A stretch of 64,000 bases of DNA from Streptomyces albogriseolus (lineage in GTDB: Bacteria; Actinomycetota; Actinomycetes; Streptomycetales; Streptomycetaceae): assembly GCA_014650475.1 (NCBI GenBank), contig BMVA01000001.1, positions 62,001-126,000 on the forward strand, given 5' to 3'. Under the pieces are notes generated by a model, which saw only the letters and a program-made list of their open reading frames with translations, did no database searches and was not told the DNA's origin. Positions 6,845 to 64,000 of the stretch are shown in pieces; positions within the stretch are counted from its first letter, which is position 1, and every line of letters starts with the position of its first letter. Both the position numbers and the translations under genes were made by a program.

Positions 6845-7750
6845 TCAGGGCACGAGCTTGTGCGCGAACACCCAGCGGTTGCCCTCCAGCGCGTCGTTGG
6901 GCTCGGGGAGGGGGCCACGCCCGTGCCTCTTGGTGAACTCGAAGGGTGTGTGCATCGAGGTGGACCAGCCCTTGGCCGTCAGGGCGCCCGCGGAGTCGGG
7001 GCGTGGTCCCTTGTCGAAGAGGCGGAGCAGGTCGATGCCGGTCAGCCGGCGCGTCGCCGTGTAGATCGGGCTGTCACGGTATGCCAGGAGATCCTTCTCC
7101 AGCTTGGCCTCGAAGGCCAGAGCACTGCCTGCGGCGGTCAGCCGGTCCACCGTGTCGACGAGGTACGTCTCGGCGGGACCCGGCAGGTAGAAGAGCAGTC
7201 CCTCGGCCAGCCAGACGCTGGGTGCGGCGGGGTCGAAACCCACGGTGCCGAGCGCGCCGGCCCAGTCCTCACGCAGGTCGACCGGCACGGGGACGCGTTT
7301 CACCTCGGGAGCGGCCGACAGGCCCGTGAGCACCTGTTCCTTGAACGCCAGCACGCCCGCCCTGTCGACCTCGAAGACGACGCAGTCGGACGGCAGGTCC
7401 AGGCGGAAGGCGCGGGTGTCCAACCCCGCTCCCAGCAGGACCACTTGGCGCGCGCCCGCACCGGCCGACCGGAGGACGAAGTCGTCGAGCACCCTCGTCC
7501 GCAGACCGAAGTAGCGGGCGAACCTCCCCCACAGCGGGTTGTCGTCGCCGTCCGGAACCTCCTCGATGCGCACCGGCCAGTGCGTGCAGGCGGGGGCCGC
7601 GCGCACGAAGTGCTCGGCGTAGGCGTCCTGGGCCAGACTGTCGTGGCGGTGGGTTTCCATGGCCCGGGACGCGGCGACCAGGAGGGCGGTCAGGCCCACT
7701 CCTCCGTCCACGCCTTCCGCGTCCGTGTGGTGGGGTGTCGTGCCTGCCAT
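6845..7750 (-). CDS. SAM-dependent methyltransferase, leucine carboxyl methyltransferase (PPM) family
   Basis: The 301-residue protein has the SAM-binding motif VVLLGAGLDTRAFRL at about residues 103-117, followed by CVVFEVDRAGVLAFK and the later WLAEGLLFYLP motif. These are signatures of the TIGR00027/PF04072 family, whose characterised relatives methylate carboxylates or hydroxyls. It is the last gene of the leftward four-gene operon, 78 bp after the alcohol dehydrogenase gene. In the context of a furan synthase and two oxidising enzymes, O-methylation of a furan carboxylate or alcohol is a reasonable guess. The substrate is not shown by the sequence. Confidence 0.85.
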   Translation of the reverse strand: MAGTTPHHTDAEGVDGGVGLTALLVAASRAMETHRHDSLAQDAYAEHFVRAAPACTHWPVRIEEVPDGDDNPLWGRFARYFGLRTRVLDDFVLRSAGAGARQVVLLGAGLDTRAFRLDLPSDCVVFEVDRAGVLAFKEQVLTGLSAAPEVKRVPVPVDLREDWAGALGTVGFDPAAPSVWLAEGLLFYLPGPAETYLVDTVDRLTAAGSALAFEAKLEKDLLAYRDSPIYTATRRLTGIDLLRLFDKGPRPDSAGALTAKGWSTSMHTPFEFTKRHGRGPLPEPNDALEGNRWVFAHKLVP

Positions 7751-54690: not shown

Positions 54691-55188
54691 ATGAGCGGCT
54701 CACAAACCCCCGCACCTCCTCCGCCGGAGGAGTGCCCGACAGGGCTGCAGTCATTTGCGGTGCAACTCCGCCGGATGACCGGCGAGTTCAACCGCATCGT
54801 CCAGGAGTTCGCTCAGGCGCACGGTCTGCACCACACCGACATGCTCGCCCTGATCGCGATCCTCGACGGCGGCGGACCTGACACACCCATGACACCCGGC
54901 CGTCTGCGCAAGCAGCTCAACCTCACCTCCGGCGCGATGACAGCATGCCTGGACAGGCTGGAGCGGGCGGGTCACATCCGGCGTGTCCGGGCGGCCGACG
55001 ACCGCCGTGTGGTGCATCTGGAGTACGAGGACCGGGCCAAGGGCCTGGCGCGCGAGTACTTCCAGCCGCTCGCCCGCAGCACCGACGCGGCCCGCGAGCA
55101 CTTCACGGTCGAGGAGCTGCGCGTGGTCATCCGCTTCCTCACCGAGCTGAACCACGAGCTCGCGCTGCTGCGCGGGCGCACCGACTGA
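54691..55188 (+). CDS. MarR-family transcriptional regulator
   Basis: The 165-residue protein has the MarR winged helix: LHHTDMLALIAILDGGGP, TPGRLRKQLNLTSGAMTACL, DRLERAGHIRRVRAADDRRV, VHLEYEDRAKGLAREYF. The DRR wing is typical. It is divergent to the MmpL exporter gene and very probably its drug-responsive repressor. A TATACT box six bases before the ATG suggests a leaderless transcript. Confidence 0.92.
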   Translation: MSGSQTPAPPPPEECPTGLQSFAVQLRRMTGEFNRIVQEFAQAHGLHHTDMLALIAILDGGGPDTPMTPGRLRKQLNLTSGAMTACLDRLERAGHIRRVRAADDRRVVHLEYEDRAKGLAREYFQPLARSTDAAREHFTVEELRVVIRFLTELNHELALLRGRTD

Positions 55189-55283: not shown

Positions 55284-55304
55284 TGAAAATGATTACCGTT
55301 ATCG
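55284..55304 (+). promoter_or_regulatory. Fur-family (Fur/Zur) metal box
   Basis: GAAAATGATTACCGTTATC at 55285-55303 matches the classical 19-bp Fur consensus GATAATGATAATCATTATC at 15 of 19 positions, and resembles actinobacterial Zur sites with a TGAAAATGATT core. It is the most AT-rich stretch for kilobases and lies 120 bp before the first gene of the ATP-grasp operon, inside the expected promoter. Metal-dependent repression of the operon is therefore likely; which metal is not clear. Confidence 0.75.
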
Positions 55305-55315
55305 TGTCTTCGGCG

Positions 55316-55413
55316 CAGCCCGGCCCCTCGCCCTGAGGGGTCCTCCCGGGCTGCCCCGCCATCGCAACCGCGCCCCGGGGCAGGGCACGAAAGCCTCAGG
55401 GCAGGGCACGAAA
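55316..55413 (+). promoter_or_regulatory. Leader with nested hairpin and 15-bp direct repeat
   Basis: CAGCCCGG (55316-55323) pairs with CCGGGCTG (55346-55353), enclosing a second stem CCCCTC/GAGGGG. Further on, GGGCAGGGCACGAAA occurs twice (55378-55392 and 55399-55413), 21 bp apart, the second copy running into the ribosome site. The hairpin could be an attenuator in the operon leader. Confidence 0.45.
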
Positions 55414-55422
55414 AGGGGAGTT

Positions 55423-56679
55423 GTGGCTCATCTGCTGGTGGTCGAGAGCTGGGTCGGATCGATGAGCAGGCTGCTGCCGCGGGCGATACAGGAGGGCGGC
55501 CACACATTCACCTTTCTCACCCGCGACCTGCACCACTACTTGCGCACGGCGCCCGAGGGCGCGGCGCACCCGCTGCTCGGGGCGCGCAACGTGGTCACGG
55601 CGGACACCAACGACCCGGCGTCCCTGCTGCCGTACGTGGAACGGCTGCACGAGGTCCTCGGATTCGACGGCGTCCTGACCTCCTGCGACTACTACCTGCC
55701 GACGGCCGCGCTGGCCGCCGAGCGCCTGGGTCTGCCCGCGCCGGACGCCGAGGCCGTACGGAACGCCTGCCGCAAGGACGCCACCCGCCGCGTGCTGGAC
55801 GAGGCGGGCGTGCCGGGCCCTCGGTTCGCCGTCCACGAGGAGTGGGCCGAACTGGCGGCGGCCGCGCGGGACATCGGCTACCCGCTGGTCGTCAAGCCCG
55901 TCGACCTGTGCGCGGGCATGTTGGTGCGGCGGGTCGACGACGAAGCTCAACTCGCCGCCGCCGTAAGGGCGATGGCCGACTTCCCGGTCAACGCACGGGG
56001 GCAGCGGCGCGCACCGGCGGTGCTGCTGGAGGAGCTCCTGGACGGGCCGGAGGTGAGTGTCGAGACCGTGTCCCACGCGGGCGCGGTACTGGTGGTCGGG
56101 GTGACCGACAAGAGCATCGGCGGCGCACCCGCGTTCATCGAGACCGGTCATATGTTCCCCGCCGCGCTGCCGGCCGCCGAGGCGGAGGACGTCGTACGGA
56201 CCGCGCTGGACGCGCTCAAGGCGCTGGGGCTCACCGAGGGGGTCGTGGCGCACACGGAGATCAAGCTGACGTCGGCCGGTCCGCGCGTGGTCGAGGTCAA
56301 TCCGCGGCCGGCCGGCAACCGCATCACCGAACTCGTCCGCCATGTCACCGGTACCGACCTGGTCGCGGCGTTCGTCGACGTGTCGCTGGGCCGGGCGCCC
56401 GACCTGCGGCGCGCGGACACCGGACTGCGGTCCGCCGCGATCGGTTTCCTCGTCCCGGAGACCACGGGCACGCTCGAGCGCCTGGACGACACCGGGCTGT
56501 GGAACGAGCCGGACGTGCTGGAGGCGGAGCTCGCCGAGCCAGGCAGGCAGGTGCGGGCGGCGGGCAGCAACAACGAGTACCTCGGGCACGTCATGGCGGG
56601 CGACACCGAGGGGGCGGGGGCCCGTGACCGGGTCGAGGGTCTGCTCGCGGCGCTGCGGTCGGGGCTGGTGATCCGATGA
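55423..56679 (+). CDS. ATP-grasp ligase
   Basis: The 418-residue protein has an N-terminal Rossmann-like domain (LLVVESWVGSMSRLLPRAIQ). The ATP-grasp core includes NACRKDATRRVLDEAGVPGP, the Lys in YPLVVKPVDLCAGMLVRRVD, VLLEELLDGPEVSVETVSHA and metal ligands in HTEIKLTSAGPRVVEVNPRP, AGNRI. ATP-grasp enzymes join a carboxylate to an amine through an acyl phosphate. As first gene behind a Fur-type box, it probably makes the amide bond of the operon's product. The GTG follows AAAGGGGAG closely. It overlaps the next gene by ATGA. Confidence 0.93.
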   Translation: MAHLLVVESWVGSMSRLLPRAIQEGGHTFTFLTRDLHHYLRTAPEGAAHPLLGARNVVTADTNDPASLLPYVERLHEVLGFDGVLTSCDYYLPTAALAAERLGLPAPDAEAVRNACRKDATRRVLDEAGVPGPRFAVHEEWAELAAAARDIGYPLVVKPVDLCAGMLVRRVDDEAQLAAAVRAMADFPVNARGQRRAPAVLLEELLDGPEVSVETVSHAGAVLVVGVTDKSIGGAPAFIETGHMFPAALPAAEAEDVVRTALDALKALGLTEGVVAHTEIKLTSAGPRVVEVNPRPAGNRITELVRHVTGTDLVAAFVDVSLGRAPDLRRADTGLRSAAIGFLVPETTGTLERLDDTGLWNEPDVLEAELAEPGRQVRAAGSNNEYLGHVMAGDTEGAGARDRVEGLLAALRSGLVIR

Positions 56680-57512
56680 CCGCCGTCCGCTCGACGTCCG
56701 TGGGCACGATGACGTACGAGACTCTGTCGGCGCGCGCCCGGGACGGGGAGTCCGGCCCGGATCCGGCGGGGCTGCGGGTGGCCGTGGCCTTCACGACCCG
56801 GCAGGCCGTACGGCACGACGGGCGGGGCACCGGTTACCGGAACGAGGTGCTGGGGCTGCGCGTCGGTGCGGCCGTCGGCAGCTGCGCGGTGGAGCCCGGT
56901 GCGCTGGACGACGACGTGGTCGAGGAGTGCGCCGGGGCGAGCGTGGACCGGCTTCTGCGCCATCCGCTGACGCCGGTGCGGGTGGCCGCGCCGGACGCCT
57001 ACCTGATGCACGTCGCTCCGCACACCCCGGCACACGGCGCCCGGCCCGTGACCGTGCCCGCCGGGACCTCGCTGGAGAAGTCCCGCGCGCGGGCGCGGGC
57101 GGTCGTCGGGCTGCTGGACCTGCCGGCAGGGGCCACCGTCCTGGTGGTCGGGGTGGTCAACTCACTGCTGGAGGCCCTGCGCGCCCGCTCACTGGCCTAC
57201 GTCCCGTGCGACTTCAAGGGCGGAGTCACCGAGTGGGGCGAGACCGTCGTCACCGACGCGCTCGCCGAGGCGCACCGGTGCGACGCTCTGCTGGTGTCCG
57301 GGATGACGCTGGGCAACGGCACGTTCGAGCCGTTGCGGCGGCACGCGCTGGAGCACGGCAAGCAGCTGGTGATGTTCGCGCAGACGGGCAGCGCCGTGCT
57401 GCCCCGCTTCCTGGGGCACGGAGTGAGCGCGGTGTGCGCGGAGCCGTATCCCTTCTTCTGGCTGGACGGCGGTCCGAGCACGCTGCACCTGTACCGAGGG
57501 GGTGTGCGGTGA
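56676..57512 (+). CDS. DUF364 (putative heavy-metal chelation) domain protein
   Basis: The 278-residue protein contains AVAFTTRQAVRHDGRGTGYR, then TVLVVGVVNSLLEALRARSL, AYVPCDFKGGVTEWGETVVT and DALLVSGMTLGNGTFEPLRR, HALEHGKQLVMFAQTGSAVL, matching the DUF364 Rossmann-like domain with an enolase-N-like start. Structural studies of the family suggested metal binding, but no enzyme activity is established. Its start overlaps the ATP-grasp stop and its stop overlaps the PLP enzyme start, so it is an integral part of the pathway, perhaps handling the metal or the metal-free chelator. Confidence 0.88.
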   Translation: MTAVRSTSVGTMTYETLSARARDGESGPDPAGLRVAVAFTTRQAVRHDGRGTGYRNEVLGLRVGAAVGSCAVEPGALDDDVVEECAGASVDRLLRHPLTPVRVAAPDAYLMHVAPHTPAHGARPVTVPAGTSLEKSRARARAVVGLLDLPAGATVLVVGVVNSLLEALRARSLAYVPCDFKGGVTEWGETVVTDALAEAHRCDALLVSGMTLGNGTFEPLRRHALEHGKQLVMFAQTGSAVLPRFLGHGVSAVCAEPYPFFWLDGGPSTLHLYRGGVR

Positions 57513-58606
57513 CCGCCGCCGTCGCTCCCCCCGCCCGGCCCGTCGCGCGGCCGGAACTGCTGTCCCTGCTGGGACGCACTCCCGTCGTGCGGGTCACGGC
57601 GGGCCTGCCGGATCCGCACCCCGGGTTCTGGGCCAAGCTCGAAGGGCTCGCGGCCGGCGGGATGAAGGCGCGGCCCGCCGTGTCGATGCTGCTGGACGCC
57701 CGTGAGCGGGGCGTGCTGCGGCCGGGCGCCCCGGTGGTGGAGTCCACGTCCGGCACGCTCGGCCTCGGACTCGCCTTCGCCGGGCAGGCCCTCGGCCATC
57801 CCGTCGTCCTGGTCGGCGACGGCGAACTCGAGCCGTCCATGCGGCGGTTGCTGCGGGCGCACGGGGTGCGGCTGGAGATCGTGGACCGTCCCGCGGTCCG
57901 GGGCGGCTGGCAGGCCGCGCGGCTGGCCCGGCTGAGGGAGCTGCTGGCCGAGCTGCCTGGCGCCTACTGGCCCGACCAGTACAACAACCCGGGCAACAGC
58001 GCCGGTTACGCCTCCCTCGCCGCCGAACTCGCCGTGCAGCTCGACCATCTGGACGTCCTGGTGTGCAGCGTCGGCACCGGCGGACACAGCGCGGGCATCA
58101 TCGGTCCGCTGCGCCGGCACTGGCCCCGGCTGCGGCTGATCGGCGTGGACGCCACCGGCTCCACGATCTTCGGACAGCCCGCCCGGCCCCGGCTGATGCG
58201 TGGGCTGGGCAGCAGCATCCACCCGCGCAACGTCCACTACGACGCGTTCGACGAGGTGCACTGGGTCGGCCCGGCGGAGGCGGTGGACAGCTGCCGGCGG
58301 CTCGCCTCGGAGAGTTTCGTGAGCGGCGGCTGGAGCACCGGCGCCGCGGCCCGTGTCGCCGCCTGGGCGGCCCGCGTCCATCCGGGCGCGGTCGTCGCGA
58401 CGGTCTTCCCCGACGGTCCGCACCGCTACCTCGGCACGGTCTACGACGACGACTTCACCGCCGCGCACGGCCTCGACCTCGCCGCCGCTGCCACCCGGCC
58501 CATGGAGATCCCGCACCCGCGTGCGACCGAGGCCACCGGCTGGGCGCGCTGCACCCGCGTCACCGATCCGCTGAAGACCGCACCGCCCGCAGGGAGGACC
58601 CCGTGA
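57509..58606 (+). CDS. Cysteine synthase-like PLP enzyme
   Basis: The 365-residue fold-type II PLP enzyme has the Schiff-base lysine in GGMKARPA (K53), the phosphate-loop variant ESTSGTLG (residues 78-85) where cysteine synthases have TSGNTG, VCSVGTGGHSAGII and a late STGAAARVAAWAARV. The altered loop groups it with enzymes such as SbnA, which use O-phosphoserine or similar and a non-sulfide nucleophile to make diaminopropionate-type products. It may build the metal-binding diamino acid core. GTGA overlaps join it to both neighbours. The true nucleophile is unknown. Confidence 0.9.
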   Translation: MTAAVAPPARPVARPELLSLLGRTPVVRVTAGLPDPHPGFWAKLEGLAAGGMKARPAVSMLLDARERGVLRPGAPVVESTSGTLGLGLAFAGQALGHPVVLVGDGELEPSMRRLLRAHGVRLEIVDRPAVRGGWQAARLARLRELLAELPGAYWPDQYNNPGNSAGYASLAAELAVQLDHLDVLVCSVGTGGHSAGIIGPLRRHWPRLRLIGVDATGSTIFGQPARPRLMRGLGSSIHPRNVHYDAFDEVHWVGPAEAVDSCRRLASESFVSGGWSTGAAARVAAWAARVHPGAVVATVFPDGPHRYLGTVYDDDFTAAHGLDLAAAATRPMEIPHPRATEATGWARCTRVTDPLKTAPPAGRTP

Positions 58607-59679
58607 AGGCCGCCACCCGCACCGTGCGGCTCGAACTCACCGAGCCGCTGCGCATATCCCGTTCCACGACGGCCGCCCGTGACGCCGTGTGGCTGAGCGT
58701 CGAGCACGGCGGTGTCACCGGTCACGGCGAGGCCGTCACCAGCGTCTACTACGGCCTCGACACGGCGACTCTGCGCCGCAGCCTCACCGACGTCTCCCGG
58801 GAGCTGTGCCGTTACCCGGACCCCGCCGCCGCCCTGGAGTCGCTGCGTGCGGGCGAGCTGGCGGGGGGCGCCACGCCCCCGGCCGTACGGGCCGCCGTGG
58901 AGGCGGCGCTGCTCGACCTCGCCGGCATCCGCGCGGGCCGCCCCGTGCACCGGCTGCTCGGTCTCCCGCAGGCGCCGGTGGCCGCGACCGCCCGCACGAT
59001 CGGCATCACCTCGGCCCTCGACGCGGCGGCCCAGGCACGCGCGCTCACCGCGAGCGGCTTCGAGGTTCTCAAGCTGAAGGCGGGGCTGCCCGACCCGGAG
59101 GAGGACGTCGAGCGGCTGCGGGTCGTCCGGGACGCCGTGCCCCGCGCCCGCCTGCTGCTCGACCCGAACGGCGCGTGGACGCCCCGCCAGGCCGAGGCGC
59201 TGCTCCCCCGATTCGCCGACCTCGGCGTCGAGGCCGTCGAGCAGCCTGTCACCCCGGGCGACCCCGAAGGGCTGGCCGCGCTGGCCGCGCGCTCACCGCT
59301 GCCCGTGATCGCCGACGAGGACGCCGTCGGCCTGGAGGACGTCCGCCGGCTCGCCGGGCGCGTCCACGGCGTCAACGTGAAGCTCGCCAAGTGCGGCGGT
59401 GTGCACGCCGCCCTGCGCATCGCGGAGACGATCGCGGGCAGCGGCACCGAGCTGATGCTGGGCTGCCTCACCGCCAGCAGTCTCGGACTGGCGCCGGCGG
59501 TGCATCTCGCGGGACTGGCCCGCTGGACCGACCTCGACGGCCATCTGCTGCTCGCCCACGACCCGTGGACCGGCATCGGCGGCGAGGACGGGTACGTACG
59601 GACGAGTGGCCTGCCCGGGCTGGGCGTCGCGCCGCGAACCGTGCGTCCTGAGCGTCGGGCGGCGGTGGGCGCGCCGTGA
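58603..59679 (+). CDS. Dipeptide epimerase (enolase superfamily, L-Ala-D/L-Glu epimerase type)
   Basis: The 358-residue protein has a capping domain and a barrel with the complete active site of the MLE subgroup: K157-L-K159, metal ligands D187 (LLLDPNGAW), E213 (EQPV) and D238 (ADEDA), and the second base K260 (VNVKLAKCGG). Members epimerise the C-terminal residue of dipeptides. Downstream of an ATP-grasp ligase this suggests a dipeptide-like intermediate whose stereochemistry is changed. It overlaps both neighbours by GTGA. Confidence 0.92.
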   Translation: MKAATRTVRLELTEPLRISRSTTAARDAVWLSVEHGGVTGHGEAVTSVYYGLDTATLRRSLTDVSRELCRYPDPAAALESLRAGELAGGATPPAVRAAVEAALLDLAGIRAGRPVHRLLGLPQAPVAATARTIGITSALDAAAQARALTASGFEVLKLKAGLPDPEEDVERLRVVRDAVPRARLLLDPNGAWTPRQAEALLPRFADLGVEAVEQPVTPGDPEGLAALAARSPLPVIADEDAVGLEDVRRLAGRVHGVNVKLAKCGGVHAALRIAETIAGSGTELMLGCLTASSLGLAPAVHLAGLARWTDLDGHLLLAHDPWTGIGGEDGYVRTSGLPGLGVAPRTVRPERRAAVGAP

Positions 59680-60941
59680 GGACCTGGCACGAGATACGCC
59701 GCTTCCCGCTCGCCGTCCAGTTGCTGCTGGTCAACCAGTTCGGTGTGAACACCGGCTTCTACCTGCTCATCCCCTACCTCGCCACCCACCTCACCGAGAA
59801 CCTCGGCATGTCGGCCGCCGTCGTCGGTGTCGTCCTCGGTGTGCGCACCCTGAGCCAGCAGGGGTTGTTCGTGGTCGGGGGTTCGGCCGCCGACCGGCTG
59901 GGTGCGCGGGGCGTCATCATCGCCGGGTGTGCGCTGCGCACCCTGGGGTTCGGCCTGTTCGCGTGGGGGGACGGCCTGGTGGTGCTGCTGGCCGCCTCCG
60001 TGCTCAGCGGCTTCGCGGGGGCGCTGTTCAACCCCGCCGTGCGCGCCTACATCGCGCAGGAGGCGGACGGGCGCAAGGCGGAGGCGTTCGCCCTGTTCAC
60101 CATGTTCGCGGCGGCCGGTGCGCTGGTCGGGCCGCTGCTGGGCAGCGCGCTGCTGCTGGTGGACTTCCGCACCTCGGCGCTGACGGCCGCCGGGATCTTC
60201 GCCGTTCTCACCGTCGCCCAGGTGCTGGTGCTGCCCGCCCGTGGGACGGAGCCGCGCCGCGGCGGTTCGGTGCCGGCGGACTGGCGGGAGGTGCTCGGGA
60301 ACCGGCCGTTCCTCGCGTTCGCGCTCGCCATGGTCGGCATGTTCACCCTGGAGAGCCAGCTGTATCTGCTGCTGCCCGACGGCGCGCGGCAGGCCACCGG
60401 CTGGGACGGCGCCGCCGGACTCGTCCTGCTCGTCGGGACCCTCGCGCATCTCACCCTGCAACTGCGGGTCACCCGCGCCCTCAAGGAGCGCGGGCGGCGG
60501 GGGCGCTGGATCGTCACCGGGCTCGGTCTGATGGCGGTCGCGTTCGTGCCGCCGGCGCTGACGGCGAGCGGCTCCGGCCAACCGGACGGCCTGGTGGACG
60601 GGGTGCTGCGTGTGCTGCCCGTGCTGGCCGGCGCGCTGCTGCTGAGCCTGGGGGTGATGGTGGCGCAGCCGTTCGTGATGGAGCTGATCCCCGCCTACGG
60701 CCGCCCCGGGCTCACCGGCACCTACTTCGGGGTGTTCTACGTCGTCTCGGGCGTGGCCGCGGCGGTGGGCAACACCGTCGTCGGATGGGCCATGGACACC
60801 GGTGGACGGGCCGGGACGGACTGGCTGCCGTGGGTGTGCTGTGCCCTGTTCGGGCTGGTGTCGGCGCTCGGGGTGGCGTGGCTGCGACGGCTGGGATCGC
60901 TGCCGGCGCCGTCGGAACCCGCCGTGCCGGCGACGGTCTGA
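59676..60941 (+). CDS. MFS exporter
   Basis: The 421-residue protein has 12 membrane helices (VQLLLVNQFGVNTGFYLLIP; VVGVVLGVRTLSQQGLFVVG; motif A as GGSAADRLGARG). It resembles drug/siderophore-type MFS exporters. Within the operon it most probably secretes the finished small molecule. The GTG start overlaps the epimerase stop by 4 bp. Confidence 0.9.
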   Translation: MRTWHEIRRFPLAVQLLLVNQFGVNTGFYLLIPYLATHLTENLGMSAAVVGVVLGVRTLSQQGLFVVGGSAADRLGARGVIIAGCALRTLGFGLFAWGDGLVVLLAASVLSGFAGALFNPAVRAYIAQEADGRKAEAFALFTMFAAAGALVGPLLGSALLLVDFRTSALTAAGIFAVLTVAQVLVLPARGTEPRRGGSVPADWREVLGNRPFLAFALAMVGMFTLESQLYLLLPDGARQATGWDGAAGLVLLVGTLAHLTLQLRVTRALKERGRRGRWIVTGLGLMAVAFVPPALTASGSGQPDGLVDGVLRVLPVLAGALLLSLGVMVAQPFVMELIPAYGRPGLTGTYFGVFYVVSGVAAAVGNTVVGWAMDTGGRAGTDWLPWVCCALFGLVSALGVAWLRRLGSLPAPSEPAVPATV

Positions 60942-60957
60942 GGGAGGGGACATCCAC

Positions 60958-61764
60958 ATGGCTCTTGAAGCGAACGGACGTGCCCGCACGCTCCTCACGG
61001 ACCGGCCCGAGCTGTACGAGGCCCGCTTCCCCGATCCCGAGCGCCTCGCCGGGCGATGGGCGGAGGACTGTCTGCGGCGGCACGGCGCGGGACCGCGTGT
61101 GCTGGACATGGGCTGCGGCACCGGCCGCGACGCCGGCCGTCTGCACGCGGCGGGCCGCCGGGTGACCGGGGCCGACCTGTCCGAGCCGATGCTCGCGTAC
61201 GCCCGCACGCACCATCCGGGGCCCGAGTACGTACGGGCCGACCTGCACGGATTCGACTTCGGAGCGGAGGCGTTCGACGCCGTCGTGTGCCTGGACAGCG
61301 CGCTGCTGTACTGCCACACGAACGAGCAGCTGGACCGCTTCCTCTCCTCCTGCCGGCGCGCGCTGAGCCCCGGCGGCCTGCTGGTGGCGGAGATGCGCAA
61401 CGGCGCGTACTTCCTGGGCCGCACGGACCTTCTCGACTCCCCCGCCGATGCCGAGTTCGCCTGGCGGGGCGTCGTGCACCGGTCCGTCACCACGCTCACC
61501 GTGGACCGTACGGCGCAGCTTCTGCGCCGGGTGCGGGTGTGGAGCGCGGGCGACGGTGGAGAACCGGCCGAGGAGCGTTCCGCCTGGCGGCTGCTGTTCC
61601 CGCAGGAGCTGCGCCACGTCCTGACCGCCCACGGCTTCGAGGTGCTGGAGCTGCACGACGGGCCCGGCCCGCGCACCGAACCGCCTTGGCGCGAGGGTCT
61701 TCTGCCCGGCCGCGCCGCCGACGCCGACCGACTGCACGTCGTGGCCCGTCGCTCCCGGCCCTGA
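60958..61764 (+). CDS. Class I SAM-dependent methyltransferase
   Basis: The 268-residue protein has the SAM motif I VLDMGCGTGRDAGRL at about residues 48-62, the acidic residue in VTGADLSEPML, then FDAVVCLDSALLYC and LSPGGLLVAEMRNG. It fits N- or O-methyltransferases of small molecules. GAGGGAGGGGAC precedes the ATG, 16 bp after the exporter stop. It probably tailors the operon's product. Confidence 0.9.
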   Translation: MALEANGRARTLLTDRPELYEARFPDPERLAGRWAEDCLRRHGAGPRVLDMGCGTGRDAGRLHAAGRRVTGADLSEPMLAYARTHHPGPEYVRADLHGFDFGAEAFDAVVCLDSALLYCHTNEQLDRFLSSCRRALSPGGLLVAEMRNGAYFLGRTDLLDSPADAEFAWRGVVHRSVTTLTVDRTAQLLRRVRVWSAGDGGEPAEERSAWRLLFPQELRHVLTAHGFEVLELHDGPGPRTEPPWREGLLPGRAADADRLHVVARRSRP

Positions 61765-61804
61765 CGTCCGCTCCTCGCTCCCCTACAGACAGAAGGACTT
61801 GACC

Positions 61805-63403
61805 ATGCACGACGACTCTGTTCCTCCCCTGCCCTCCGACACCCGCTTCGCGGGACTGCGCCGTCGCGGCTTCCTCGCCGCCACGGGCGCCGCCTCGCTC
61901 GGCGCGCTCTCGCTCGCCGGCTGCGGCGGCTCCGGTGACGGCGGTGATCCCAAGGGGGGCGGCACGCCGCAGCGGGGCGGGCGGCTGCGCGCCGCGTTCG
62001 CGGGCGGCGGTGCGGGCGAGACGCTCGACCCGCACCGGGCCAATCTGTTCGCCGACGCCGCCCGCGCCAAGGCGCTCTTCGACAAGCTCGCCGACTACGG
62101 CCCCGACCTGGCCGCCCGGCCGCGCCTCGCGGAACGCTGGGAGCCGAACAGGACGCTGGACCGCTGGCGGGTGACGCTGCGGGAGGCGGCCTTCCACGAC
62201 GGCCGTCCGGTCACCGCCGAGGACGTGCTGCACAGTTACCGCCGGATCGCCGATCCGAGGGAGGCGTTCCGCGCGAAGGCGTCGTTGGAGCCCATCGACC
62301 TGGAGGCGAGCCGGGCCACGGGCCGGCGGTCGGTCGAGTTCGTGCTCAAGCGGCCCACCGCCGAATTCCCCAACGTACTGGCCGCGTTCGGCGCGTACAT
62401 CGTGCCCGCGCACGCGGACGACTTCGACCGGGACCCCGTGGGCTCCGGTCCCTTCCGGTTCGTGTCGTTCGCGCCGGGCCGTTCGGCGGTCTTCCGCCGC
62501 TACGACGGCCACTGGGACGGCGCGCCGTACCTGGACGAGATCGAGTTCGTCGTCGCCAACGAGGAGTCGGCGCGGGTCAACGCGCTCCTCGGCGGGCAGG
62601 TCGAGTACGCGCACGAGCTGAACCCGACGACGGCACGCGCCCACGAGGGCAGGGGGCAGATCGACATCGTGCGGCTGCGGAACAGCGCCATGCAGGCGTT
62701 CTGCATGAAGACCGACCGGCCGCCCTTCGACGATGTGCGGGTGCGGCGGGCGTTCTTCCTGATCGCCGACCGGAAGGAACTGGTCGACGCCGCGCTGGCC
62801 GGCGCCGGCGAGACGGGCAACGACCTGTTCGGCAAGGGTTACGAGTACTACGCGGACGGTCTGCCGCAGCGTGAACAGGACCTGGAGCAGGCGCGGTTCC
62901 TGCTCCGGCAGGCCGGCGCCGAGGACCTGCGCGTCACGCTGGACACCTCGGCCGTCGCCGCCGGGTTCACCGAGGCCGCGAGCGTCTTCCGCGACCAGGC
63001 GAAGCAAGCGGGCGTCACGGTCGACGTGCGGATGGGCAGCAAGGACTCGTACTGGAGCGACATCCTCGACGGCGGCACCCTGTGCTGCTACCGCTCCGGC
63101 GCCATGCCGATCGAGGCGCACATCTCGCAGCGCCTGCTCACCGATTCCACGACCAACGCCACCCACTGGCGGCACCGGGACTTCGACGCGCTGTACCGGC
63201 AGGCGCAGTCCACCCGCGACACGAAGGAGCGCGCCGCCGTGTACGAGCGCATGCAGCGCCGGCTGTACGCCGAGGGCGGGTTCCTGGTGTGGGGGTTCGC
63301 CGACTGGATCATCGGAACCGCCCGCACGGTGCGGGGCGTCGAGGCGAACGCGCCCGCCAACACGTTGGACTGGGCGCGGTTCGACAAGGTGTGGCTGGCG
63401 TGA
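61805..63403 (+). CDS. ABC transporter substrate-binding lipoprotein (peptide/nickel family 5)
   Basis: The roughly 532-residue protein has a twin-arginine-like start (RRRGFLAATGAASLGALSLA) with lipobox LAGC (C40). The family 5 binding domain contains ETLDPHRANLFADAARAKAL, WRVTLREAAFHDGRPVTAED, VGSGPFRFVSFAPGRSAVFR and CMKTDRPPFDDVRVRRAFFL. DppA/NikA-like proteins capture peptides, nickel-chelator complexes or opine metallophores. It follows the methyltransferase gene and would bring the metal-loaded product back. ATG 61805 is preferred; a TTG at 61799 would add two residues. Confidence 0.92.
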   Translation: MHDDSVPPLPSDTRFAGLRRRGFLAATGAASLGALSLAGCGGSGDGGDPKGGGTPQRGGRLRAAFAGGGAGETLDPHRANLFADAARAKALFDKLADYGPDLAARPRLAERWEPNRTLDRWRVTLREAAFHDGRPVTAEDVLHSYRRIADPREAFRAKASLEPIDLEASRATGRRSVEFVLKRPTAEFPNVLAAFGAYIVPAHADDFDRDPVGSGPFRFVSFAPGRSAVFRRYDGHWDGAPYLDEIEFVVANEESARVNALLGGQVEYAHELNPTTARAHEGRGQIDIVRLRNSAMQAFCMKTDRPPFDDVRVRRAFFLIADRKELVDAALAGAGETGNDLFGKGYEYYADGLPQREQDLEQARFLLRQAGAEDLRVTLDTSAVAAGFTEAASVFRDQAKQAGVTVDVRMGSKDSYWSDILDGGTLCCYRSGAMPIEAHISQRLLTDSTTNATHWRHRDFDALYRQAQSTRDTKERAAVYERMQRRLYAEGGFLVWGFADWIIGTARTVRGVEANAPANTLDWARFDKVWLA

Positions 63404-64000
63404 GCGGACTGCGCTCGTTCGTCGCCCGGCGGCTGCTGCTCGGGGTGGCGCAGATCGTGGCCGTGGTGCTGCTGGTCTTCGCGCTCACCGAGGCGCTGCC
63501 GGGCGACGCGGCCGTCGCCCTCGCCGGTGACCAGCCGGACCCGGCCCGGATCGAGGCGATCCGTACGGCGATGGAGCTGGACCGGCCCGCGTGGGAGCGG
63601 CTGGTGGACTGGGCCGCGGGCCTGCTCCACGGGGACCTCGGGACCTCGCTGACGTCCGGGCGCCCGGTGACGTGGTACCTCGTCGACGGCTTCGGCCCCA
63701 CCCTGCTGCTGACCGCGCTCACCGTGGTGCTGCTGGTGCCGGCCGGCCTGGGGCTGGGCGTGCTGGCCGCACGGTACGAGGGACGGCTGGCGGACCGGCT
63801 GATCAGCTCGGTGACGCTCGCGGTGTACGCGGTGCCCGAGTTCGCCCTGGGGGTGCTGCTGGTCACGGTGTTCGCGCTGCGGCTGGGCTGGCTGCCGCCG
63901 ACGGCGGTCGGTCACGGCGCCGACCTGCTCGCGCATCCGGGAGTGCTCGTCCTGCCCGTCCTCGTCCTGTTGGCCCGGCCCGTGTGCTCCCTGGTCCGGC
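63400..64000 (+). CDS. ABC transporter permease, DppB type (partial)
   Basis: About 200 residues are visible before the window ends. The start FVARRLLLGVAQIVAVVLLV, then FALTEALPGDAAVALAGDQP and HGDLGTSLTSGRPVTWYLVD are typical of DppB/NikB permeases. GTGA overlap with the binding protein stop shows co-translation. DppC-like permease and ATPase genes are expected beyond the edge. Confidence 0.92.
   Translation, partial: MSGLRSFVARRLLLGVAQIVAVVLLVFALTEALPGDAAVALAGDQPDPARIEAIRTAMELDRPAWERLVDWAAGLLHGDLGTSLTSGRPVTWYLVDGFGPTLLLTALTVVLLVPAGLGLGVLAARYEGRLADRLISSVTLAVYAVPEFALGVLLVTVFALRLGWLPPTAVGHGADLLAHPGVLVLPVLVLLARPVCSLVR

Follow-up and report, generated by a model that had tools for sequence, protein, structure and literature searches.

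A conserved ten-gene operon behind a Zur-type box in Streptomyces, a probable pathway for a zincophore

The ten-gene operon and its protein families

We analysed a stretch of 64 000 nucleotides from Streptomyces albogriseolus (the window; positions 62001–126000 of contig C1 in the 8.07-Mb genome). Towards its right-hand edge, a tightly packed run of plus-strand genes starts at window position 55423 behind a Zur-type box. The window contains seven of these genes whole and the beginning of an eighth. A preliminary description had taken them for an eight-gene operon with mostly 4-bp overlaps. The genes and overlaps are as it gave them, but the eighth gene merely begins in the window, and to the right, where that description had advised looking for further permease and ATPase genes, the flanking sequence encodes a second permease and a fused ATP-binding cassette (ABC) ATPase. 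Because these continue the run past the window, we count ten genes in the operon. Its composition and promoter suggest that it probably serves the synthesis, export and re-uptake of a zincophore and would be repressed by zinc-loaded Zur. The box and the ten genes are, in window numbering:

55284–55298, plus strand: predicted Zur box, TGAAAATGATTACCG (9/11 on the Zur motif, 17/21 on a combined score; a 19-mer matching the Fur consensus overlaps it at 55285–55303)
55423–56679, plus strand: ATP-grasp ligase of the L-amino-acid-ligase type (PF13535; PF18603, LAL_C2)
56676–57512, plus strand: DUF364 protein, proposed core enzyme (PF04016)
57509–58606, plus strand: SbnA-like pyridoxal phosphate (PLP) enzyme of the PALP family (TIGR03945 below cut-off; SbnA, 5d87, is the best PDB relative)
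58603–59679, plus strand: enolase-superfamily enzyme, dipeptide-epimerase-like (PF13378, PF02746)
59676–60941, plus strand: major facilitator superfamily (MFS) exporter, MdtH-like (PF07690)
60958–61764, plus strand: class I S-adenosylmethionine-dependent methyltransferase (PF13649, PF08241), start set at ATG
61799–63403, plus strand: solute-binding lipoprotein of family 5, NikA/DppA/CntA type (PF00496)
63400–64353, plus strand: ABC permease 1, cut by the window edge at 64000 and completed from flanking sequence
64350–65171, plus strand: ABC permease 2, outside the window, from flanking sequence
65155–66726, plus strand: fused two-domain ABC ATPase, outside the window, from flanking sequence

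Each of the seven whole window genes was backed by a Pfam match. Of the nine junctions, six overlap by 4 bp and one by 17 bp; the other two leave 16 and 34 bp between the genes. Downstream of the ATPase gene, GDSL and PadR genes lie on the minus strand. By Pfam, none of the ten genes encodes non-ribosomal peptide synthetase (NRPS) modules, an NRPS-independent siderophore (NIS; IucA/IucC) synthetase, an opine dehydrogenase or a nicotianamine-synthase-like enzyme, which bears out the earlier remark that NRPS, NIS and opine enzymes are missing here.

The ATP-grasp protein belongs with the L-amino acid ligases: it matches their C-terminal domain (PF18603) with 41.8 bits against a cut-off of 29.4, and its top PDB relative is the L-amino acid ligase BL00235 (3vot, 107 bits). 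Its top NCBIfam match is to the N-terminal half of PRK02186 (214 bits; cut-off 625). That model carries the name argininosuccinate lyase, and fused relatives may reveal C–N bond chemistry tied to the ATP-grasp protein. The DUF364 protein of the window scores 24.1 bits with PF04016, barely over the gathering cut-off of 23; two homologues from the sister clusters described below score 44 and 45 bits. In a structure model of medium confidence (pLDDT 68), the first fold match is 3npg (TM ~0.5), and because of this model quality we make no claim about an active site. A DUF364 structure was reported in 2010 in an account that, in the sections consulted, proposes a role only (PMC2954201).

The PLP enzyme scores 241 bits with TIGR03945, under the equivalog cut-off of 350. 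Among PDB entries SbnA (5d87) is nearest with 150 bits, followed by O-acetylserine sulfhydrylase with 140, and in the alignment to SbnA the lysine of the MK(D/A)R stretch matches. The enzyme would thus be expected to catalyse beta-replacement on a phosphoserine-type substrate. The enolase-superfamily protein had been described as a dipeptide epimerase with a complete active site. The residues are indeed all retained in an alignment with dipeptide epimerase 3jva (K-x-K, D, E, D, K and D-x-D, which we take to be the K-x-K motif, the metal ligands, the second lysine and the D-x-D motif). The family name is less secure, as the protein stays under every dipeptide-epimerase family cut-off (PRK15129, 143 bits against 343; A_G_epim_Thtga, 129 against 500); its top family model, the N-acetyl-glutamate racemase DgcA, is also below cut-off (222 against 400).

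The MFS protein matches MdtH (PRK11646) with 152 bits, under the cut-off of 469. The solute-binding protein, of family 5, scores 245 bits with PF00496; it scores 144 bits with Opp5A_nikA (cut-off 600) and 45 bits with the CntA model (cut-off 800), and 5isu and 3t66 are its PDB relatives.

The Zur-type box and its conservation

The box was scored against the Zur motif of S. coelicolor as it is given in PMC5472717 (tGaNNatSatNNtCa; 11 informative positions). A 15/19 match to the Fur consensus had been noted earlier, and we reproduced this value at the same site with the sequence that we take to be that consensus. The sequences of Fur and Zur boxes overlap; a reading as Zur box suits the other sites in the genome that carry the motif. 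When the whole genome was searched for TGAAAATGATTWTCR, two mismatches being allowed, nine matches were obtained, which fall at eight places; the reversed control gave one. Besides the window box, they include a site at znuA (PF01297). This gene adjoins a gene of the FUR family, which is therefore probably zur. Four places lie on contig C14, one of them ~0.3 kb from a paralogue of ribosomal protein S14 (PF00253), a second directly ahead of a Peripla_BP_2 gene that belongs to a Fec-type ABC system, and two more close by. The match at C23:74894 falls within a called gene and is probably due to chance; the eighth place is C6:249349. The genome as a whole thus has a FUR-family gene beside znuA and a motif common to znuA and the S14-paralogue region, as a Zur regulon should. 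The region of the S14 paralogue and the Fec-type ABC system (C14:10000–45000; loci L065 and L066) may import a zincophore.

If the operon made an iron siderophore under Fur, the Fur-consensus match would be accounted for. No iron (DmdR/IdeR) box was present in the window promoter, however: with the sequence that we presume for this box, the best site reached 10/19, and the best sites in the promoters of 80 window-type (type A) loci reached 8–12 of 19. The box instead groups with the znuA and S14-paralogue sites and fits the Zur motif as published (PMC5472717). Since the motif recurs at znuA and near the S14 paralogue and the promoter lacks an iron box, we favour Zur over Fur and regard an iron siderophore as very improbable. 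The regulator is most likely Zur and the metal zinc. Of the Fur box postulated in the preliminary description, the conserved metal-type box stands, most likely with a different regulator. The observation itself is confirmed, and the argument for metal control has become stronger than it was at first.

The metal might still be another one: a chelator of copper, nickel or cobalt, or an intracellular ligand of zinc, would fit a binding protein of the NikA family, and DUF364 genes have been reported close to transport genes for several metals (PMC2954201, in the part consulted). Zur-type control indicates zinc, however, and an exporter is present. One exact pattern that we take to be the nickel (Nur) box found no match in the window promoter. 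We therefore think it unlikely that the product is such a ligand instead of a secreted zincophore.

The orthologous loci come from named genomes and are the best 80 of 296 relatives; all but one of the 80 bear the title Streptomyces. In 74 loci the ten genes are complete and in order; five of the remaining six stop at a contig end, the exception being locus L155. With the exception of L117, which has no room upstream, 79 promoters could be scored by the best plus-strand site in the oriented 250 bp upstream. The score was 10/11 in 47 promoters, 9/11 in 31 and 8/11 in one, on the motif as given in the source cited above. Among 2000 random 250-bp windows from the same loci, some of which include the box itself, 63 reached 9/11 and 362 reached 8/11. 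On the 21-point combined score, 78 of the 79 promoters have a site of at least 17, compared with 19 such sites in 1.48 Mb outside promoters of the same loci. In an alignment of the 80 promoters, the mean information is 1.55 bits in the box columns and 0.80 elsewhere. The box match is more than chance. Conservation of gene set and upstream box in other genomes, which the preliminary description proposed to look for, was thus found. The idea of a metal-controlled operon whose genes make, modify, export and re-import a product is supported.

Of eight further close Streptomyces loci read at length, seven have all ten genes and L043 has the first five. In the solute-binding-protein gene of locus L041 (6739–8308), two reading frames meet near 7079–7110, perhaps through a frameshift or an assembly error. 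Two genomes of other families carry the ten genes in order at 50–70% identity, barring one short epimerase piece at 44%. In one of them (L230), a 19/21 site stands just ahead of the first gene. Orthologues without a box had been named as evidence that would speak against metal control; among the scored promoters of the named set every one has a site of at least 8/11, and a promoter without a box was found outside Streptomyces, at L229. A close DUF364 copy occurs in 60 of 246 Streptomyces genomes (own genome included), about a quarter of the sample.

The MarR gene upstream of the box (54691–55188) was considered as an operon partner and dropped, because it was matched on the strand of the cluster in just 3 of the 80 loci. 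It scores 34 bits with the AdcR-type model (cut-off 175).

Comparison with related clusters

Streptomyces scabiei 87.22 holds two clusters of interest, one of the window type at ~9.09 Mb and, elsewhere, the cluster for ethylenediaminesuccinic acid hydroxyarginine (EDHA). According to the portions of the literature consulted, the latter comprises tags SCAB_5231–5311 over ~11 kb (PMC8914351), is listed as MIBiG BGC0002567 (PMC11888242) and responds to iron (PMC10702961). We recognised it by its place, its ~11 kb length and an arginine-hydroxylase-like gene. Both clusters encode an SbnA-like enzyme (36% identity) and a family-5 binding protein, two permeases and an ABC ATPase (35–43% identity). 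The EDHA cluster has in addition an arginine-hydroxylase-like dioxygenase, an SbnB-like enzyme of the ornithine-cyclodeaminase type (PF02423), a PLP decarboxylase (PF02784) and a MATE exporter, whereas the window cluster has the Zur box and encodes an ATP-grasp ligase, a DUF364 protein, an epimerase-like enzyme, a methyltransferase and an MFS exporter. By Pfam, neither the SbnB-like enzyme nor the decarboxylase is among the ten genes of the window operon.

The EDHA divergent promoter contains two iron-box-like sites (14/19 and 13/19), the best in 19.9 kb, and no site in the cluster exceeded 16/21 on the Zur score in scans at thresholds of 16 or 17. This is the reverse of the window promoter, and the EDHA cluster therefore serves as a natural control for the assignment to Zur. 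Together with the box comparison, it led us to reject control by Fur and iron.

The likeness to EDHA raises the question of whether the operon is a variant of the aminopolycarboxylate pathways, with an ethylenediamine-type chelator as product. The SbnA-like enzyme and the family-5 importer are as in the EDHA cluster, and [S,S]-ethylenediaminedisuccinic acid (EDDS; aes cluster) of Amycolatopsis japonicum is likewise a zinc- and Zur-controlled zincophore made outside NRPS and NIS, as the consulted parts of PMC9252823 and PMC4993170 describe it. Compared with the EDHA genes, the SbnB-like enzyme and the decarboxylase are missing here, and on this comparison we rejected membership of the EDDS/EDHA type in spite of the SbnA-like enzyme. 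S. scabiei, moreover, keeps both clusters at separate loci, and the identity between their SbnA-like proteins is no higher than 36%. An ethylenediamine-type product is in our estimation a minor possibility.

Export and re-uptake genes in one operon, together with an importer related to that of EDHA, count in favour of a zincophore. They also bear on a different idea, that the operon makes a small diaminopropionate peptide antibiotic or antimetabolite during zinc starvation and that the ABC system recovers or imports peptides. Dapdiamide-type pathways combine an ATP-grasp ligase, an SbnA-like enzyme and an MFS exporter, the combination seen here. However, the importer is a member of the operon in 74 of the 80 loci and has a relative in a known metallophore cluster, the Zur-type box is near-universal, and Pfam recognised no resistance gene among the ten genes. 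A dapdiamide-like product thus seems improbable to us, and a zincophore remains the preferred interpretation.

Other known systems share parts of this organization. Among solved structures, the PLP enzyme comes closest to SbnA of the staphyloferrin B (sbn) pathway of Staphylococcus aureus, but the ten genes lack an SbnB-like enzyme and a NIS synthetase, and a Zur-type box replaces iron control. Opine metallophores of the staphylopine and pseudopaline type follow a zinc-responsive logic and share an importer with a family-5 binding protein as well as an exporter; their opine dehydrogenase and nicotianamine-synthase-like enzyme have, by Pfam, no counterpart among the ten genes. The pathway had been called new. 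SbnA-based non-NRPS metallophore pathways are already known (EDDS and EDHA), and the importer shares its family with that of the EDHA cluster; the novelty lies in an enzyme set that differs from that of EDHA. Titles and abstract openings of the open-licence papers listed by our searches yielded no description of this gene set. In the section of the S. scabiei list of 46 clusters consulted (PMC8914351), no metallophore entry stands between clusters 29 and 31, where the spacing of locus tags places the locus by estimate.

When ten candidates per genome were scored for DUF364 in the 246 Streptomyces genomes, a distant copy (39–45% identity) was found in 40, in addition to the 60 with a close copy (66–100%). 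Both types occurred together in one genome, compared with 9.8 expected (hypergeometric P = 7e-5, kinship ignored). This genome (G012) is the one with the shortened window-type cluster of five genes, L043. We examined 12 of the 40 distant loci (L045–L056), referred to here as sister (type B) clusters. All 12 have an SbnA-like gene near DUF364 (28–34% identity), none has an ATP-grasp or epimerase match, and three have a related importer (48–53% identity). A Zur-like site of 17–21 out of 21 is present in 11 of the 12 loci and scores 19 or more in seven; L053 has none. The background per 19 kb is 0.24 sites at 17 and 0.09 at 19. In eight of the 11 loci, those of L046, L051 and L055 set aside, the site precedes a cluster gene that was either called or matched. 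Sister locus L050 encodes a methyltransferase-like protein of 255 aa and a PhyH dioxygenase, and L045 has a Peripla_BP_2 importer gene. The picture fits two alternative clusters, each presumably controlled by zinc, with a common DUF364/SbnA-like core.

SbnA-like paralogues with 54–63% identity occur in several families of the Actinomycetes, three of them in the own genome (L219, C13:139627; L220, C13:150723; L221, C23:63111). We examined 13 paralogue loci (57–62% identity), these three and ten from elsewhere. In 12 of the 13 the paralogue adjoins an MFS gene related to that of the window (42–46% identity); L220 has no adjacent match. Nine of the 13 loci lack a Zur-like site of at least 17. The other four hold five sites, none of them upstream of the pair; one site in L231 scores 19 and falls inside the MFS match. 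Since the pairs have no Zur-like site upstream, zinc cannot be deduced from the core enzyme by itself. The pair may form a minimal unit that makes and exports a small compound of the diaminopropionate type. Clustering of the neighbours (best 12 groups) gave no further gene in more than seven of the 13 loci, apart from wrong-frame shadows of the pair; neighbours in six to seven loci resemble, by eye, genes of BlaI/M56 type and DUF305 type. In a tree of 42 SbnA-like proteins, the type B group is firm (support 100/100); for type A and for the pairs, one change has to be assumed in each case (support 49/0 for type A, 78/93 for the pairs). A second znuA-like gene of the own genome (PF01297; L219:17816–18802) lies ~4 kb from an SbnA–MFS pair.

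Candidate pathway and leader hairpin

We propose the following pathway for the operon. When zinc is plentiful, zinc-loaded Zur would occupy the box and block transcription; under zinc starvation the operon would be expressed. The SbnA-like enzyme could couple an amine with a three-carbon unit derived from serine; diaminopropionate or an N-carboxyalkyl-diaminopropionate would result, and the DUF364 protein may work on this core. The ATP-grasp enzyme would then attach an amino acid by forming a peptide bond, one residue might be inverted by the epimerase-like enzyme, and the methyltransferase might cap one group. We infer as product an N-carboxyalkyl-diaminopropionate or diaminopropionate core with a peptide bond, one epimerised residue and one methylated group. 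The ‘methylated, epimerised diamino-acid dipeptide’ of the preliminary description is a fair reading of the same enzyme families. The MFS protein would export this small chelator, rich in amines and carboxylates, and the family-5 binding protein with the two permeases and the fused ATPase would recover its zinc complex. What the sequence shows is how the operon is built, that it is conserved, that it has a Zur-type box and which protein families it encodes; that Zur binds, that the metal is zinc, in which order the steps run and what the product looks like is deduced from this.

Several observations weigh against this proposal. Zur-regulated genes can have purposes besides chelation. The box of the window itself, with its combined score of 17/21, is at the low end of its group. 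Outside Streptomyces, the promoter of one of the two orthologues (L229) contains no site that reaches 17. L155 and L043 lack the right half of the operon although the sequence continues, L155 ending after the epimerase gene and L043 after the MFS gene. The SbnA-like paralogues mostly pair with an MFS gene that has no Zur-like site upstream. The mutual exclusion of the two DUF364 types is uncorrected for kinship and comes from ten candidates per genome.

The comparison with the sister clusters leads to a broader and more tentative idea. DUF364 proteins, long suspected in metal chelation, could be the committed enzymes of a new class of zincophores. Their SbnA-like/DUF364 core might be decorated in two ways, by peptide ligation and epimerisation or by other steps such as the dioxygenation suggested in a sister cluster, and the two types, each switched by Zur, would substitute for each other across the genus. 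We hold this possibility with somewhat less than even confidence. If the operon does make a zincophore, this genus, common in soil, possesses a means of scavenging zinc that is invisible to searches for NRPS, NIS or opine enzymes. DUF364 would gain a testable biochemical function, and competition for zinc in soil would become easier to study.

One further feature lies between the box and the first gene:

55312–55356, plus strand: 5′-leader hairpin (fold of the window sequence), conserved in position and variable in sequence

In 36 of 74 extracted leaders that were aligned, 89.2% of cells were paired in a hand-drawn structure derived from these same sequences, and 21 cells had changed on both sides. 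None of 500 shuffles was as high on pairing or on two-sided change. RNAalifold gave a weak consensus with seven pairs retained, and the hairpin had no match in Rfam. Some species have a shorter, different leader. Where present, the hairpin is possibly an attenuator or an RNA switch.

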